From assembly GCA_012840465.1 (NCBI GenBank), contig DULJ01000089.1:1-64000 (forward strand): DNA of 64,000 nt. The letters run 5' to 3'. The position numbers and the translations under genes were made by a program. Shown in pieces: positions 3,419 to 47,771 of this stretch; the first letter of the stretch is position 1, and each line of letters begins with the position of its first letter. This stretch comes from Caryophanales bacterium. Its GTDB lineage: Bacteria; Bacillota; Bacilli; Bacillales; Bacillaceae_J. The notes below the pieces were generated by a model. That model saw only the letters and a list, made by a program, of their open reading frames with translations, was not told the origin of the DNA and ran no database searches.

Positions 3419-4138
3419 TTATAAATCGTTTATTACGATATAAGTTGCCTTAAATGGTCCATGCACGCCAACAACTAATTTTAATTCAATATCGGCCGAA
3501 TTACTTGGTCCACTAATAAAGTTAACACAAGAGGGTACATGGCCTGTTTTTTCATATATTTCTCTCATTTTTTGCGCACCTTGTGTCATCCTTGCTACTA
3601 TTGTACTCTTCGGAACAAGGGCGATAAAAGTTGAAGGTAGAAAGCTAACGGTCCTTCCTTTTTCTTTGCCACTATATAAGACGACCGTCCCAGATTCGGC
3701 AAGAGTAACTTCGCTTATGGTGATTCCAATATTGGCGTTTTCGGCAATTTTGATGTTTTCATCGCCTTTTGTGTAATCCCACTCGTGAACATCAATATTT
3801 TGACTTGGCCATTCTTCTTTAAAAAGAAGATCAAGCCCCCAATCCGTGAAACGGTTATCCTTCCACTTCACTACGGGACCACCTCCATATTCGGATACGA
3901 CCTTGTTAAGTGTGGAGGCTATATCTTTAGTGTCCGTTACATAAAGACTAGTATGGATCTTTTTACATTGCTCTTTTAATATATCAAGGAGTTCATCCTT
4001 TGTAGCATCATGAAATACTTTATCCTGTGGCCGATATTTCCATTTTGGACTTTCAATTGGGGAGGAAACCCTTGAACGTCCAAGTTGTCCAGCAATTTTA
4101 TTTAAAAATTCATCACGATTTTGGATTGTTCCAACCAT
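3419..4138 (-). CDS. lutC: Lactate utilization protein C
   Basis: This 239-residue LUD-domain (DUF162) protein is the third subunit of the LutABC complex that oxidises L-lactate to pyruvate in Bacillus. The C-terminal half carries the family's conserved stretch (NIGITISEVTLAESGTVVL near 135-155 and SADIELKLVVGVHGP near 215-230). The start codon overlaps the lutB stop codon by one base (TAATG), a sign of translational coupling. It is the last gene of the operon and is followed at once by a terminator. Length and sequence are those expected for an intact LutC. Confidence 0.95.
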   Translation of the reverse strand: MVGTIQNRDEFLNKIAGQLGRSRVSSPIESPKWKYRPQDKVFHDATKDELLDILKEQCKKIHTSLYVTDTKDIASTLNKVVSEYGGGPVVKWKDNRFTDWGLDLLFKEEWPSQNIDVHEWDYTKGDENIKIAENANIGITISEVTLAESGTVVLYSGKEKGRTVSFLPSTFIALVPKSTIVARMTQGAQKMREIYEKTGHVPSCVNFISGPSNSADIELKLVVGVHGPFKATYIVINDL

Positions 4139-5565
4139 TATTTTCCCCCTCCTTTTTCACGGTTTTTAAACCAATCCCTAAATCTTTCTTTATTTGGTGC
4201 CGGGAACTCACGGATTTCTGTCCATGCTTTTAACGGGCCGGCACCTTTTGAGATTTTATCTCCAACTGTAAATGGACTCATCGCAGTAGGTGCCACTTTA
4301 GAGCCAAGTTTGTACAGGGTAGGTGACGCAGCACCCAGACCAAATGCTTTCATAGCGAGCTTTTCTGAAATCGGTGCTTTCCCTTCTTTTTCAACGATAA
4401 CTTCCCGATGCTTGTGGATAAGCTGATGCAACGGAATTTTCACCGGACAAACCTCAGTGCAAGCCCCACAAAGTGTTGATGCATAGGGAAGCTCTTTATA
4501 TTTATCGTAGCCACCAAGAAGTGGTGAAAGAACGGCCCCAACCGGACCGGAATAAATAGAACCATAGGAATGACCGCCAATATGACGATAAACTGGGCAG
4601 ACGTTGGCACAAGCGGCACAGCGGATACATTGCAGTACAGACTGGAACTCTCCGCCAAGAATAGCGGATCGGTCATTATCAATAATGACCAGATGAAATT
4701 CTTCCGGACCATCCACATCCGCTTCTTCTTTTGGACCTGTAAGCACTGTTACATAGCTTGGCAGCTTTTGTCCGACCGCACTTCTAGTCAGCATTGAAAC
4801 TAGGACTTCCATTTCTTCAAACGTCGGAACGAGGCGCTCCATTCCCATGACCGTAATTTGTGTTTTCGGCAAGGAAGTTACTAAATCCGCATTACCTTCA
4901 TTCGTAACTATACAAACGGAGCCTGTTTCAGCGACCGCAAAATTACAACCCGTAATCCCAATATCTGCTGTTAAATATTCCTGACGTAGCATTTCGCGCG
5001 CATGCCACGCTAATTCTTCATGATTAGCTGACTTTGTGTAGCCAAGTTTTTTTGCAAAAACATCACGAACCTGCTCTTTATTTTTATGCAGGGCGGGTGC
5101 AACGAAGTGGGAAGGTGGATCATGATCGTCTACCTGTAAAATGTATTCCCCAAGGTCCGTCTCCATGACCTGACAACCTTCTTTTTCAAGAGCTGCATTT
5201 AAACTTATTTCTTCCGTTACCATCGATTTTGATTTTACAACTTTCTTAGCATTTTTCTTTTTAGCAACCTCACATATGTACTGAGTTGCTTCTTCCTTTG
5301 TTTGTGCAAAAAAGACATGTCCACCCCGTTTAGCGACATTTTCACTTAATTGCTCCAAATAATAATCCAAATATTGAAGGACATGCTGTCTTATTTCTTC
5401 ACCATGGTTACGCCATTCCTCCCAATTTCCAAGTTCCTGAACAGCCAACTGTCTTCTTGCTTCAATGCTATCCTGGGCACTTGCCACAGCCCCACGCATA
5501 AAATCATTATGGATTCCTTTCTCAACCCGTTCATTAAATGGTTGATTACTAATTTCAATCGGCAT
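4138..5565 (-). CDS. lutB: Lactate utilization iron-sulfur protein B
   Basis: A 475-residue protein with an N-terminal LUD/DUF162 domain and a C-terminal ferredoxin-like part. Two [4Fe-4S] motifs are visible: [12 protein letters not shown] near residue 315 and CGACTEVCP near residue 363. LutB passes electrons within the LutABC lactate oxidation complex in the cytoplasm. It starts at ATG 5565 behind AGGGGTGA, 34 nt after lutA, and overlaps lutC by one base. The order lutA-lutB-lutC is the same as in B. subtilis. No lactate permease gene (lutP) lies next to the operon here. Confidence 0.96.
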
Positions 5566-5599
5566 CTTGAATTCACCCCTATTTCCTTTTAAATTTCTT

Positions 5600-6316
5600 T
5601 TAACGGCTGTTTAAAACCTCTGCAATATGCATGATCTTAATTGGTTTTCCTTTTCTTTCAATCCGGCCCCCGATATTCATTAAACAGCCTGCATCAGCAC
5701 CAATTAAATATTCAGCCCCTGTTTCCTCCACATGCTGCACTTTTTCATCGACCATCTGCTCGGATATTGGTGCCATTTTAACGGAGAAAGTCCCACCAAA
5801 ACCACAGCATTTTTCTTTGCCTGGCAGTTCTGTAAACTTCAAACCCTTGACATTTCTTAATAAAATCATTGGTGGTTCTTTTACTCCCAAAAGCCGTGTC
5901 ATATGACATGAGGTGTGATATGTAGCTGTTCCTTCGAAGCTGGCCCCGACATCCTCCACTTTTAACACTTCTACGATAAATTGAGTAAGTTCATACGTTT
6001 TATCTGCCAGTTGTTTTGCCTTAGGTTCCCAGACAGGGTCCCCCGCAAAAATAGGAGGATATTCTTTGAACATGTATGCACATGAGCCTGATGGGGATAC
6101 TACATATTCAGCATCCTTAAATGTTTCAATCATCAGCTTCATCGCTTCTTTGGATTCTTTAACATACCCGCTATTATAGGCAGGTTGACCACAGCAAATC
6201 TGTGATGCTGGAAAATCAATTTCACAGCCAAGCCGTTCAAGCAATTCAACGGTTGCTTTTCCAACATTGCTTTGAAACATATCTACTAAACATGTAGCGA
6301 ACAATGATACCTTCAT
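5600..6316 (-). CDS. lutA: Lactate utilization protein A (cysteine-rich CCG-domain subunit)
   Basis: A 238-residue protein with two CCG (heterodisulfide-reductase-type) domains: ICCGQPAYN near residues 40-48 and KCCGFGGTF near 165-173, each with a preceding cysteine. LutA is the first gene of the lactate-oxidation operon and is required with LutB and LutC for growth on L-lactate. The ATG at 6316 is preceded by GAGGGAG. The 118-nt space before lutR contains the palindrome GTCATCTGATGAC, matching the operator reported for LutR, so repression by LutR and relief by lactate are expected. Confidence 0.96.
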
Positions 6317-6353
6317 TTTTTCAAACTCCCTCGTTTTTCATATGGTAATCAGG

Positions 6354-6366
6354 TCATCTGATGACT
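6354..6366 (-). promoter_or_regulatory. Candidate LutR operator upstream of lutA
   Basis: GTCATCTGATGAC is a perfect palindrome around one base and contains TCATC-N-GATGA, the motif described for LutR in B. subtilis. It lies 38 nt in front of the lutA start, downstream of or overlapping the likely promoter. Confidence 0.75.
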
Positions 6367-6434
6367 TGGATTTAAAAAATTTCGTTGATTAATTTATCAT
6401 ACAATAAATGCTTTTATTTTTTAAGCGGAAATCG

Positions 6435-7157
6435 TTAATTGAGATGATCTGTTTGATTAAAATATTGCTTTAACATGTCCTCCACATTTTCAAGGTGTCG
6501 AAGCATGGCTTGTCTAGCCTCTTCCTTTTTCCCCCCTTTAATTGCTTCAAAAATATCCATATGTTCATTATAAAGACGGTCAAGATTACTATAATTAGAG
6601 AAAATCCAAACCTTGCGAATTTCCTTCATACTTTCACCCATGAGTCCTGAAACTTGATTCATCAATTGGATTAATAAAGGATTATTCGATGCTTCTGTTA
6701 CCGCTAAATGAAACTGCAAATCAGCTGTTTCACCAAGCTCCTTATTCGCATTTTTCATGTTGTTTAGTGCATCTTCCATTGAGTCGAGCTGTTCAGTTGT
6801 TCTTTTTTTAACAGCAGCGGCCGCGGAACCAACTTCGATAATTTTTCTTACTTCCAGCAAATTAAAAATATCTTGTTTATTCATCAGGATAGCCATTGAT
6901 AGTGGGAACGTAATGTTAGCTGAATCAAATTGTTTTACATAAGTGCCCTCTCCTTGTTTCATTTCAACAAGGCCCATAGCTCGTAATGATGTTAAGGCTT
7001 CCCGAATAGCTGAACGACCAACTTGAAAATTTTCAGCTAATTGCTGGACCGAATCAAGCTTGTCCCCTGGCATTAATTTTCCGGAACGGATCATTTCATG
7101 AATAGCCTCGGCTACTTCCTCATAAATTTTCTTTGGTTTAATTTTTGGGTAATTCAC
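6435..7157 (-). CDS. lutR: FadR-family GntR regulator of lactate utilization, LutR
   Basis: A transcription factor of about 240 residues with an N-terminal GntR winged helix (PGDKLDSVQQLAENFQVGRSAIREAL) and a C-terminal FCD ligand-binding domain with the metal-site pattern FHLAVTEASNN. It sits directly upstream of lutABC on the same strand, with its own operator-like palindromes on both sides. It should repress lutABC when lactate is absent. The start chosen is GTG 7157, nine bases behind AGGAGGTG; a GTG at 7169 lies inside that ribosome binding site. No clear terminator separates it from lutA. Confidence 0.9.
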   Translation of the reverse strand: MNYPKIKPKKIYEEVAEAIHEMIRSGKLMPGDKLDSVQQLAENFQVGRSAIREALTSLRAMGLVEMKQGEGTYVKQFDSANITFPLSMAILMNKQDIFNLLEVRKIIEVGSAAAAVKKRTTEQLDSMEDALNNMKNANKELGETADLQFHLAVTEASNNPLLIQLMNQVSGLMGESMKEIRKVWIFSNYSNLDRLYNEHMDIFEAIKGGKKEEARQAMLRHLENVEDMLKQYFNQTDHLN

Positions 7158-7214
7158 GTTTTGATTCACCTCCTAGAAAGATGATGGTGATTATTATTTT
7201 TATCATACTAATTA

Positions 7215-7283: not shown

Positions 7284-8411
7284 TTACGCTAAGCGTATTT
7301 TAAAGTCTTGATAATTGAATTGGTGTACAACTCGGCAGTCGCCGTTTTTATCTTGAACAGCAATTGTAGGGAGGGGCATACCGTTAAAGGTTGTGTTTTT
7401 AACCATTGTATAAATGGCCATGTCGCCAAAAACTAGGCGCTCTCCACCTTCCAATGGCTGATCAAAGGAATAGTCGCCTATTGTATCACCTGAAAGACAG
7501 GTTTGTCCACCAAGGCGATAGGTGTATGGCTTTTCACCTGGGTCCCCTGAGCCAATTAATGGCGGGCGATACGGCATTTCCAATACGTCAGGCATATGAC
7601 AAGAGGCGGATGTATCTAGAATTGCAATATCCATACCGTTTTCCAAAGTATCAAGGACGGTAGTGACAAGATATCCTGCATTTAATGCGACTGCTTCACC
7701 CGGCTCAAGGTACACTTGCAAGCCGTATTTATCCTGCATTCGCTTAATGCATTCTTCTAATAATGGAATATCATAATCTTCTCTTGTAATATGGTGACCA
7801 CCACCGAAGTTAATCCATTCCATTTTTGAAAGATAAAGACCAAACTTCTCTTCCACAGCATCAAGAGTTTTAGCTAGGTCATCAGAGTTTTGCTGGCAAA
7901 GTGTATGGAAGTGAAACCCTGATATACCCTCCAATTGCTCTGGACGAAAATGTTCGATCGTTACACCAAAGCGCGAACCTACTGCACATGGGTTATAGAT
8001 ATCATGTCCAACTTGTGTTGAGCATTCCGGATTGATGCGAAGACCGATTTTTTTACCAGCCTTTAAAACTTTATCGCGAAATTTTTCAACCTGTGAAAAG
8101 GAATTGAAAATAATATGATCGCAATAAGAGATGATTTCATCTATTTCATCTTCACGGTAGGCAGGGGCAAAGACATGATTTTCTTTGCCCATCTCCTCAT
8201 ACCCTAGCTTAGCCTCATATAGGCCACTTGCTGCCGTACCGCTCAGATATTTTCCAATCAGCGGATACATCGTATACATTGAAAATGCCTTTTGTGCCAA
8301 AATAATCTTAGCCTCTGTACGTTCCATGATTCCGTTCAAGATTTTAAGATTCTTTTTTAGCAGGCCTTCGTCTACTACATAGCATGGTGTCGGTAATTCT
8401 TCAAAACGCAT
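7284..8411 (-). CDS. nspC: Carboxynorspermidine/carboxyspermidine decarboxylase
   Basis: A 375-residue PLP-dependent decarboxylase of the alanine-racemase fold. The PLP lysine is probably K41 in LAQKAFSM; the FHTLCQ, FGGGHHITR and EPGEA blocks are typical of NspC, and the catalytic region near the C-terminus reads TSASCHMPD and GDMAIYTMVKNTTFNG. It removes CO2 from carboxy(nor)spermidine to give (nor)spermidine. It lies one base behind the partner dehydrogenase gene, so the two form the complete alternative triamine pathway that avoids S-adenosylmethionine decarboxylase. Which triamine is made cannot be told from sequence. A strong hairpin follows the gene. Confidence 0.95.
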   Translation of the reverse strand: MRFEELPTPCYVVDEGLLKKNLKILNGIMERTEAKIILAQKAFSMYTMYPLIGKYLSGTAASGLYEAKLGYEEMGKENHVFAPAYREDEIDEIISYCDHIIFNSFSQVEKFRDKVLKAGKKIGLRINPECSTQVGHDIYNPCAVGSRFGVTIEHFRPEQLEGISGFHFHTLCQQNSDDLAKTLDAVEEKFGLYLSKMEWINFGGGHHITREDYDIPLLEECIKRMQDKYGLQVYLEPGEAVALNAGYLVTTVLDTLENGMDIAILDTSASCHMPDVLEMPYRPPLIGSGDPGEKPYTYRLGGQTCLSGDTIGDYSFDQPLEGGERLVFGDMAIYTMVKNTTFNGMPLPTIAVQDKNGDCRVVHQFNYQDFKIRLA

Positions 8412-8412
8412 A

Positions 8413-9666
8413 TTATCCTACTAACTCCGCTTCTAAAGATTTCTTAGAATCTGAATCCTCTGGAAGTGCATCCACAAGAACTGGGTTAAAGTCTTCCTTC
8501 CATGGAAGTCCCCAAACATTTAATGCTTCCATGAATGGATCTGGATCAAATTCTTCAATATTGTATACGCCTGGCTTATTCCACTTGCCAGTTAAGATCA
8601 TCATTGCACCGATCATGGCAGGAACACCAGTTGTATAAGAAATAGCCTGTGAACCTACTTCTTGGTAGCATTCTTGGTGATCACAAACATTATAAACATA
8701 GTAAGTTTTATCTTGACCATCTTTTTTACCTTTAAAGATACAGCCAATATTTGTTTTTCCAACTGTTCTTGGACCAAGTGAAGCAGGGTCTGGTAATACA
8801 GCTTTCAAGAACTGCAATGGAATAATCTGTTTTCCTTCGTATTCTATCGGCTCAATTGAAGTCATGCCCACATTTTCAAGGCATTTTAGATGTGTTAAAT
8901 AGCTTTGGCCAAATGTCATGAAGAAACGGATTCGCTTAAGTCCAGGCATATTTTGTGTAAGGGATTCAAGCTCCTCGTGGTATAGCAAATACATATCTTT
9001 CTCGCCAACTTCTTCAAAGTTGTAAACACGCTTAATTTCCATTGGTTGTGTTTCAATCCATTGGCCATTTTCCCAATATCTTCCGTTTGCGGAAACTTCA
9101 CGAATGTTGATTTCAGGGTTGAAGTTAGTAGCAAATGGGTAACCATGATCGCCACCGTTGCAGTCTAAGATATCAATGTATTCAATTTCATCAAAATAAT
9201 GCTTAAGGGCATAAGCGGAAAATACACCAGTTACACCTGGGTCAAAGCCGCTTCCTAATAGCGCAGTAATACCAGCTTTTTCAAAACGCTCACGGTATTC
9301 CCATTGCCACTTATATTCAAACTTTGCAGTATCTTCTGGCTCATAGTTTGCAGTGTCCATATAGTGTGTTTTTGTTGCAAGACAAGCATCCATAATAGTT
9401 AAGTCCTGATATGGTAATGCTAGATTCATAACGATGTCAGGCTTTACTTCATTAATTAATGCGATTAACTCGTCAACATTATTTGCATCAACTTGGGCAG
9501 TTGTAATTTTTGTTTTTCCACCATCTAATTTTGCTTTTAACTCATCACATTTAGATTTAGTACGGCTCGCAATACAAATTTCCTTAAATACCTCACTGTT
9601 TTGAACACATTTGTGAATTGATACAGAAGCAACTCCGCCACAACCAATAATAAGTGCTTTTCCCAT
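8413..9666 (-). CDS. Carboxynorspermidine/carboxyspermidine dehydrogenase (saccharopine dehydrogenase family)
   Basis: A 417-residue NAD(P)H-dependent reductase. The N-terminus carries the Rossmann pattern ALIIGCGGVASVSIHKC, and the remainder matches the saccharopine-dehydrogenase-like family (SGFDPGVTGVFSAYALKHY near 130-150). Next to nspC it is best read as the enzyme that condenses aspartate semialdehyde with putrescine or diaminopropane, rather than a lysine-pathway enzyme. Start ATG 9666 follows AAGGGAGAG. The gene lies 60 nt behind a strong minus-strand terminator and about 480 nt behind a promoter-like TATAAT, so transcription probably passes through a structured leader. This leader is the most unusual regulatory feature in the window. 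Confidence 0.9.
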   Translation of the reverse strand: MGKALIIGCGGVASVSIHKCVQNSEVFKEICIASRTKSKCDELKAKLDGGKTKITTAQVDANNVDELIALINEVKPDIVMNLALPYQDLTIMDACLATKTHYMDTANYEPEDTAKFEYKWQWEYRERFEKAGITALLGSGFDPGVTGVFSAYALKHYFDEIEYIDILDCNGGDHGYPFATNFNPEINIREVSANGRYWENGQWIETQPMEIKRVYNFEEVGEKDMYLLYHEELESLTQNMPGLKRIRFFMTFGQSYLTHLKCLENVGMTSIEPIEYEGKQIIPLQFLKAVLPDPASLGPRTVGKTNIGCIFKGKKDGQDKTYYVYNVCDHQECYQEVGSQAISYTTGVPAMIGAMMILTGKWNKPGVYNIEEFDPDPFMEALNVWGLPWKEDFNPVLVDALPEDSDSKKSLEAELVG

Positions 9667-9726
9667 TCTTCCGCTCTCCCTTATAATGAATTTTTATTTT
9701 ACAATTACTAAAAATGCCAAACAAAA

Positions 9727-9769
9727 AAAAGCAAGTGCATATCGCATATTTTGCGCATCACTTGCTTTT
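9727..9769 (-). terminator. Terminator between the structured RNA and the carboxyspermidine operon
   Basis: AAAAGCAAGTG pairs with CACTTGCTTTT over 11 bp with a 21-nt loop, and the minus strand continues with eight T residues (9723-9730). It stands 60 nt before the dehydrogenase start, where an attenuator would be expected, or else ends an independent small RNA. Confidence 0.85.
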
Positions 9770-10150
9770 GATATAATCATAAATATGAAGAATAGCCTAA
9801 ACTTAAACAAAAGAACACAACAGTTTAAGCTAGCCATAAAATCCCAGTAACTTTATGGAAAAGCTCTTCAATATTCAAAATATATCATTTTGGCTCAGAG
9901 TCTATATAGCAAATAATCGCCTTTACCACTCTTATTGACCGTTTCACAAGTTGATGTGCATATGCACTGGTTGTAAAGTAACCAACTTATAAAATTTGAG
10001 CTTTTAACTCAATCAATAAGGCAACCTAAGTTACCAATCGGCATTTGACCCGGCTGTCCGTATGGCCTAAACTTTTCTTTTAGAAAAGTGGTCAAAATTA
10101 TCTGCTTGGAAAGACTCATGATTTTGAATATGTGCTTTCCATTACTAACA
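9727..10150 (-). ncRNA. Candidate structured leader or small RNA upstream of the carboxyspermidine operon
   Basis: No coding frame is supported here. On the minus strand a TATAAT box (10156-10161) opens the unit and an 11-bp stem (9759-9769 with 9727-9737) followed by eight T residues closes it. Between them, complementary arms are: 10090-10096/10044-10050 (7 bp) enclosing 10082-10089/10071-10078 (8 bp) and CGG/CCG; 10030-10035/10020-10025; 10013-10020/9931-9938 (8 bp) enclosing 10008-10012/9996-10000, 9984-9988/9948-9952, the palindrome 9956-9967 and 9980-9983/9969-9972; 9852-9858/9834-9840 (7 bp); and 9823-9829/9802-9808 (7 bp). A 10-base repeat, GCCTAAACTT, occurs at 9795 and 10065. It matches no riboswitch, T-box, 6S, RNase P, SRP or tmRNA core I know. 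Strand follows from the promoter and terminator. Confidence 0.6.
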
Positions 10151-10219
10151 ACTCCATTATAGTATCAACAATCAAAAAAAATATCAATAAAAAAATTAAA
10201 AAACTTTTAAAAAGGGATT

Positions 10220-10759
10220 TTACAGGTCAATATCAACAAAAGCCATTTCTTCTTCGACTTCTTCGATATCCCTCATTTGGTGGGCTATTCTTGAAGCTGC
10301 GCATGCGCATATGCTGGCCACTAGATCGTCTAGGAATGTATGGACACCCCCACCGCCTTTTGTATCTAACTTTTTAATAATACCGATTTTATTTTTATCT
10401 AAATATCCATACGTCGTAACAGCTATACTTCCATATGTGAGGACTGCTCCCAAGCCAATAGTTTCGTCCACTCCAAATAAACCTTCATCACTTTCAACAA
10501 TCGATTGCAGGGGTTCTGACAACATCCCTCTCTCCGCAAGGCGGTCCAATTCAATTCCGACAAGAATCGCATGGTGAATTTCACGTTTTCTTAATACTCT
10601 TTCCACTGAAAAAATGCAATCCTCCAACGTTAAACCACCATTAAATGGACTCTGCATTTCAAATACTATTTCTGCAATATCTAAAATGGTCACGCCACGT
10701 TCTTCGAGTAAATTTTTTGTCGCTTCTTGCACATCTCGGCTATGTACCCTTTTTGTCAT
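10220..10759 (-). CDS. Phosphatidylglycerophosphatase A-related protein (YutG family)
   Basis: A 179-residue protein of the PgpA family in its soluble Gram-positive form, like B. subtilis YutG. Recognisable blocks are ATKNLLEERGVTILDIAE near the N-terminus, LVGIELDRLAERG in the middle, LGAVLTYGSIAVTTYGYLD, and HTFLDDLVASICACAASRIAH near the C-terminus. The family is annotated as phosphatidylglycerophosphatase, but biochemical proof for this branch is thin, so a lipid phosphatase role is inference. Start ATG 10759 follows GAGAGGGG. The gene is divergent from yjcG and lies directly upstream of the structured RNA region; no own terminator is visible. Confidence 0.75.
   Translation of the reverse strand: MTKRVHSRDVQEATKNLLEERGVTILDIAEIVFEMQSPFNGGLTLEDCIFSVERVLRKREIHHAILVGIELDRLAERGMLSEPLQSIVESDEGLFGVDETIGLGAVLTYGSIAVTTYGYLDKNKIGIIKKLDTKGGGGVHTFLDDLVASICACAASRIAHQMRDIEEVEEEMAFVDIDL

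Positions 10760-46529: not shown

Positions 46530-47771
<1,242 letters not shown>

Follow-up and report, generated by a model that had tools for sequence, protein, structure and literature searches.

A leader of about 430 nt on the minus strand of the analysed DNA, a window of 64,000 nucleotides from a Caryophanales bacterium, is probably a cis-acting, polyamine-responsive riboswitch of the OFF type that acts by transcription attenuation, judging from comparison of its sequence with those of related loci. Between positions 10187 and 9666, this strand carries a promoter-like site, the leader, which ends in an intrinsic terminator, and then the genes CASDH and nspC. The switch between the terminator and a conserved core was well supported by comparison among loci; we infer the ligand and the OFF direction. 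The RNA is a concrete candidate switch that is complete and testable, and it suggests that an sRNA entry in the catalogue can represent one optional part of a larger regulatory RNA not itself catalogued.

The original prediction had described a structured, attenuator- or riboswitch-like leader linked to polyamine metabolism, and both the elements that it listed and the overall description were largely borne out, with covarying helices in addition. The expected minus-strand TATAAT is present at 10161-10156, overlapping the promoter-like TTGATA-17-TACTAT. The segment from 10150 to 9723 folded at -123.2 kcal/mol, compared with -91.5 (sd 5.5) for 100 dinucleotide shuffles (z = -5.76; 0/100 as low), and the nested multibranch structure proposed for it is thus real. 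The 7-bp helix TTTGACC/GGTCAAA was located at 10096-10090 with 10050-10044, around an 8-bp hairpin (10089-10082 with 10078-10071), and the 8-bp helix designated P1 was found to contain P2, P3, P4, and P5. Hairpins at approximately 9834 and 9802 are also present on the minus strand, but the spacer around them was not conserved between aligned clades. The predicted terminator with eight U residues near the dehydrogenase gene was likewise found, with a distance of 56 nt between its U run and the ATG at 9666; a simple terminator scan missed it and reported hairpin Pa instead. The CASDH protein scored 411.7 bits against NCBIfam NF043000, under the cut-off of 800. Downstream of nspC (3419-7169, minus strand), a gene for a GntR-type regulator closest to LldR is followed by three ORFs, which presumably resemble LutABC of lactate utilisation.

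Table 1. Features of the leader and its operon; positions are those of the window.
Feature	Positions	Strand	Basis or remark
Promoter-like site	TTGATA 10187-10182, 17-nt gap, TACTAT 10164-10159	minus	consensus scan, sequence
P0 hairpin (TGGAAAG/CTTTCCA)	10107-10141	minus	aligned loci
Conserved GCAGATAA element next to P0	10105-10098	minus	aligned loci
RF02440 module (SpF59_sRNA/ldcC RNA), putatively optional	10038-10094	minus	72.2 bits (cut-off 37.2)
Conserved core R1 (Pa, P1 to P6)	9894-10043 (about 150 nt)	minus	model R1, 158.4 bits
Hairpin Pa	10035-10030 with 10025-10020 (10020-10035)	minus	all 6 pairs changed on both sides
P1	10018-10011 with 9940-9933 (9933-10018)	minus	nearly invariant; encloses P2-P5
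P2	10010-10008/10000-9998	minus	covaries
P3	9994-9985/9951-9942	minus	nearly invariant
P4	9983-9980/9972-9969	minus	covaries
P5	9967-9964/9959-9956	minus	poorly aligned; 57.5 to 73.8% of cells paired
P6 and inner helix P6b	9932-9928/9901-9897 and 9927-9922/9913-9908 (9897-9932)	minus	99.8% and 93.0% of cells paired
Switch strand, P5-3' + P3-3' (ATGCACATCAACTTGTG), proposed left arm of antiterminator	9945-9961	minus	covaries with terminator arm
Terminator 5' arm, proposed right arm of antiterminator (AGCAAGTGATGCGCA)	9752-9766	minus	CAAG enrichment
Intrinsic terminator	9723-9768; hairpin 9768-9728, U run 9730-9723	minus	-18.1 kcal/mol
CASDH, carboxy(nor)spermidine synthase/dehydrogenase	8413-9666	minus	Pfam PF16653 and PF03435 over cut-off
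nspC, carboxynorspermidine decarboxylase	7284-8411	minus	TIGR01047, 493.7 bits (cut-off 409)

The original prediction had found no Rfam class for the RNA, and in this respect it was mistaken: in a scan with Rfam 15, family RF02440 matched 57 nt of the leader over its whole 54-position model (positions 1-54), and a hit to a known family was among the outcomes that the prediction had named as refuting it. The correction applies to the 5' module only, for which Rfam gives the type sRNA; the core of about 150 nt (10043-9894) was reached by no family of Rfam 15, and the core and the switch remain outside any Rfam model. Two further families within 9600-10300 gave E values of 0.21 and 1.4, far under their cut-offs. 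The module, for which an alignment of 103 distinct rows was prepared, is closed by the helix GACC/GGTC and also contains a hairpin and GGC/GCC. Some leaders, a minority, have Pa almost immediately after P0 and its GCAAATA-like element, with no module between them. The script rule scored the module as absent in 33 of the 141 leaders with enough upstream sequence, clean absences being fewer than 33 given that the module is present in a divergent form in several of these leaders (L102, L138, and L158 among them) and that L120 was misplaced by the script, which called its P1 inside its module. P0 occurs also in loci that lack the module, and the P0 element was no more than 45 nt from P1 in 16 of the 33 leaders so scored (15 without L120). 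Comparison of 18 of the 33 with Rfam at curated cut-offs yielded no match at the RNA, and three tRNAs elsewhere. The 145 loci compared indicate that RF02440 corresponds to a putative optional 5' module of a larger RNA, whose universal part is the core. The module would be an add-on to the switch, with any role of its own conjectural. A candidate pseudoknot within it (CGG/CCG) showed no variation among the module rows, a count that is uninformative because the motif is invariant and GCCG was required in the choice of rows. A variant module in Bacilli (L015, L038, L062, L088, L094, L098, and L128) has a shorter hairpin, such as GGCAACGGTGTGCC, instead of GGCCATACGGACAGCC, and retains the loop CGG.

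RF02440 was detected in 13 of 41 relatives; CASDH was detected in 14 of the 41, and 13 of these 14 carry RF02440. One relative (G020) has a CASDH 81% identical to that of the window (C44:19483-20679), and RF02440 was not found in its genome. Among 398 genomes of the phylum, 24 contain the core and 18 contain RF02440, all 18 being among those 24. Thirty loci found via RF02440 alone shared a further conserved stretch 3' of the module, and most of them had a terminator and a polyamine gene downstream. A pattern derived from the core identified at least 120 loci in public genomes. The 118 loci with an assigned phylum among those listed were all from Bacillota, which does not imply absence from other phyla, and the matches listed comprised 87 from Clostridia, 27 from Bacilli, 3 from Negativicutes, and 1 from Erysipelotrichia; genera with the core include Faecalibacterium, Blautia, and Gemmiger. 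Given that these public loci were picked by the pattern, the invariance of its letters is partly built in. We therefore turned for a check of this bias to the 30 loci found through RF02440, in which, with one substitution allowed, the 5' strand of P1 was present in 30/30 and the CTTG..GAGT..TAAA block in 29/30; the 3' half of P6 was present in 25/30 within the 150 nt searched. The 170 pattern matches corresponded to 150 distinct loci, from which four at contig ends and L099, which had no P1 match, were left out, giving 145.

Covariation of the helices, which had been put forward as a check on the original prediction, was assessed with an alignment (A1) of 83 rows. Of 143 core rows, 100 dissimilar ones were taken, and 17 of these were removed, by our choice, as incomplete, gapped, or divergent. 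RNAalifold returned almost no structure (-2.98) for a first, gappy alignment, and the core helices were therefore written by hand; the helix model was thus derived from the same sequences in which changes were later counted. Pairing was observed in 93.4% of cells, compared with 38.3-42.4% with slid partners, and changes on both sides of a pair were found for 16 pairs and 111 cells, compared with 8.6 and 34.7 in shuffles (0/500 as high); shuffles lose the relatedness of the sequences and slides retain it, and a structure built from the same sequences tends to beat slides. The core helices do covary, mainly Pa, P2, and P4. P6 and P6b showed no changes on both sides of pairs, and, because P1, P3, and P6 are almost invariant, covariation neither supports nor weakens these helices. 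Model R1, a covariance model built from 83 core rows including that of the window, had the core as its only match in the window's genome at E ≤ 1, with 158.4 bits, and matched 22 of 22 divergent, indel-bearing, or contig-end loci at E ≤ 0.01, two of which (L023 and L032) had gone into building the model. Two consecutive core matches in L099 (5836-5961 and 5998-6126, minus strand; 54.3 and 31.6 bits) are perhaps a tandem or decayed pair, and the matches in L125 (4129-4408, minus strand) and L066 (2847-3096, minus strand) extend over 280 and 250 nt, compared with the usual 150 or so, with long insertions inside.

The genes that follow the core point to polyamines. A gene for polyamine synthesis or uptake was the first recognised gene in 138 of 145 loci, encoding an Orn/Lys/Arg-type decarboxylase in 46, CASDH in 43, SpeD in 33, and PotA in 16; no gene was recognised in the other 7, 6 of which had no ORF at all in the available downstream stretch. 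Where a first downstream ORF existed, it belonged to a polyamine cluster in 137 of 139 loci. When one representative per cluster was compared with NCBIfam, SpeE, SpeD, agmatinase, and PotA exceeded their cut-offs, and the decarboxylase, permease, and PotD representatives were under theirs. Spermidine is the end product common to the SpeD/SpeE and CASDH/NspC routes as well as the substrate of PotABCD, and it is therefore the likeliest ligand; end-product repression fits the presence of both synthesis and import genes downstream. A riboswitch for another compound or precursor of the pathway (agmatine, putrescine, carboxyspermidine, arginine, or lysine), or for SAM or MTA, seems rather improbable: the decarboxylase in first place in 46/145 loci and SpeD in 33/145 would suit such ligands, but SAM is not used at the CASDH-nspC and potABC(D) loci, no match to a SAM family reached E ≤ 5, and a single class of ligand has to suit all four gene sets.

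The downstream genes also bear on whether the RNA acts on its own and stops at the terminator, either as the stand-alone RNA that the original prediction left as an option or as an sRNA acting in trans. Rfam enters RF02440 as Gene; sRNA, and surveys of pneumococcal sRNAs listed the pneumococcal RNA as SN20 (PMC2887815) and F59/srn235 (PMC3395615), but a terminated leader would resemble an sRNA anyway. The polyamine genes downstream in 138/145 loci, the constancy of this position (137/139 loci with a downstream ORF), and the covariation of the terminator with the core make such an RNA very unlikely.

A terminator was recognised in 126 of 136 leaders and was absent from 10 by the rule used, which is permissive; 124 of the 126 reach -10 kcal/mol and 5 T. 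The motif CAAG was present in 58 of 101 distinct terminator 5' arms and the longer CAAGT in 45; shuffles gave 8.4 and 1.5, respectively. The best complement of the arm within the core overlapped the CTTG of P3-3' in 43 of 101 (9.7 expected); CTTG belonged to the pattern used to find loci, whereas CAAG did not. An ungapped CTTG/CAAG helix was not supported, with a mean run of 6.62 compared with 6.59 for permuted partners (204/500 as high); one position adjacent to the block was above permutation (34/89 versus 26.3; 3/500) and three farther out were below. After this test, and with the sequences already viewed, the duplex model was changed to admit bulges, and the controls with other segments and with thinned leaders therefore carry most weight. 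With bulges allowed, the pairing of each arm with its own core averaged -11.84 kcal/mol, compared with -10.25 with the cores of other species (0/2000) and -5.80 with shuffled sequences. Within gene classes, the number of permutations as good (of 2000) was 0 for decarboxylase, 0 for SpeD, 36 for PotA, and 66 for CASDH, and the effect is thus weaker in PotA and in CASDH, the window's own class. Among 15 segments of the core and its flanks, the effect peaked at the switch strand (z = -8.8), with two overlapping segments at -5.3 and -2.5; the 12 non-overlapping segments gave z values of -0.8 to +3.0, the +3.0 coming from a single segment and the other eleven deviating from zero by at most 1.4. The effect at the switch strand persisted in 29 dissimilar leaders (z = -6.8; 0/5000). 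In the window, the duplex of 9961-9945 with 9766-9752 was calculated at -15.3 kcal/mol. Before the 3' arm of the terminator is made, the two states were, by rough energies, -103.6 and -104.3 kcal/mol, or 0.7 apart, and for the whole leader the terminator state was favoured by 5.0 kcal/mol, again a rough energy.

Similar anatomy could serve other forms of attenuation. A leader peptide read by the ribosome is scarcely credible as the sensor: other bacteria do have leader peptides that sense polyamines, but just 4 of 139 leaders combine an SD-like site and an ORF of at least 6 codons, and the spacing between P1 and CTTG varies modulo 3 (59, 54, and 32 loci). An RNA-binding regulator that stabilises the core or the antiterminator is unlikely. 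The same arrangement of terminator and antiterminator would suit a protein, but no regulator gene recurs among the downstream clusters of three or more members, and the long, nearly invariant, multi-helix core exceeds what most protein-binding attenuators require.

For the polyamine-responsive riboswitch that we favour, both a conserved, covarying structure in a 5' leader and genes of the same pathway downstream were found, and mutually exclusive structures in the expression platform emerged by comparison, the ungapped test being negative. With ample polyamine, the ligand would bind the core and stabilise P1, P3, and P5; the switch strand would then be occupied, the terminator would form, and CASDH-nspC would go untranscribed. 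With scarce polyamine, the switch strand (9961-9945) would pair with the terminator 5' arm (9766-9752), the terminator would be blocked, and the operon would be read.

Attenuation through alternative terminator and antiterminator structures is also the mode of T-box leaders, which the proposed switch resembles in this regard. No match to the T-box family RF00230 was found in the leader; the window's one T-box match lies at 46542-46711 on the plus strand (106.9 bits; cut-off 93).

What is known of the RNA is RF02440, a family confined to the module. Beyond it lie the terminator, for one, and also the core and the switch, neither of which was found in Rfam 15 as searched, and some loci with the core lack the module. 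Judging from the alias ldcC RNA, the element has probably received attention before. A search of mostly open-access full texts yielded nothing that treats ldcC RNA as a riboswitch or deals with the core; ldcC was absent from the RNA-discovery papers and reviews checked, and SP_0916 from the main text of PMC6296669. The pneumococcal RNA between SP0915 and SP0916 was reported as SN20, of 318 nt, for which an FMN switch was suggested as possible (PMC2887815); the same RNA was reported as F59/srn235, and srn235 is tabulated among mutants with altered lung fitness (PMC3395615). The title of one paper names SP0916 as an arginine decarboxylase (PMC7531197).

Candidate RNAs near polyamine-related genes have been described before. 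The odc1 motif, a single hairpin with pseudoknot that is alpha-proteobacterial and overlaps both a uORF and the start codon, is likewise a candidate control element before a decarboxylase gene of polyamine metabolism, but differs in that no terminator switch is described for it there (PMC8632094). The potE motif shares the proximity to a polyamine-related gene and is reported only from Veillonella and environmental samples, with weak covariation and no obvious expression platform (PMC8632094). A variant of the SAM-I riboswitch binds spermidine, controls ldcC, speE, and speB, and responds to binding by transcription termination (OFF); it has the four-stem architecture of SAM-I and is narrowly distributed according to its authors (PMC10853860). 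A SAM-I scaffold was considered for the leader and rejected, no SAM family having matched at E ≤ 5 within 9600-10300 when the Rfam SAM families, not the variants, were compared. The two RNAs are alike in their association with polyamine genes and in the OFF response by termination that we propose here, and unlike in the arrangement of their helices. On balance, we lean toward the view that the leader represents a second class of riboswitch for spermidine (or polyamines), one that is unrelated in structure to the SAM-I variant and more widespread. Its core of about 150 nt, found in Clostridia, Bacilli, Negativicutes, and Erysipelotrichia, would govern both polyamine synthesis and uptake, and RF02440 would be a separable additional domain that may serve as another sensor.
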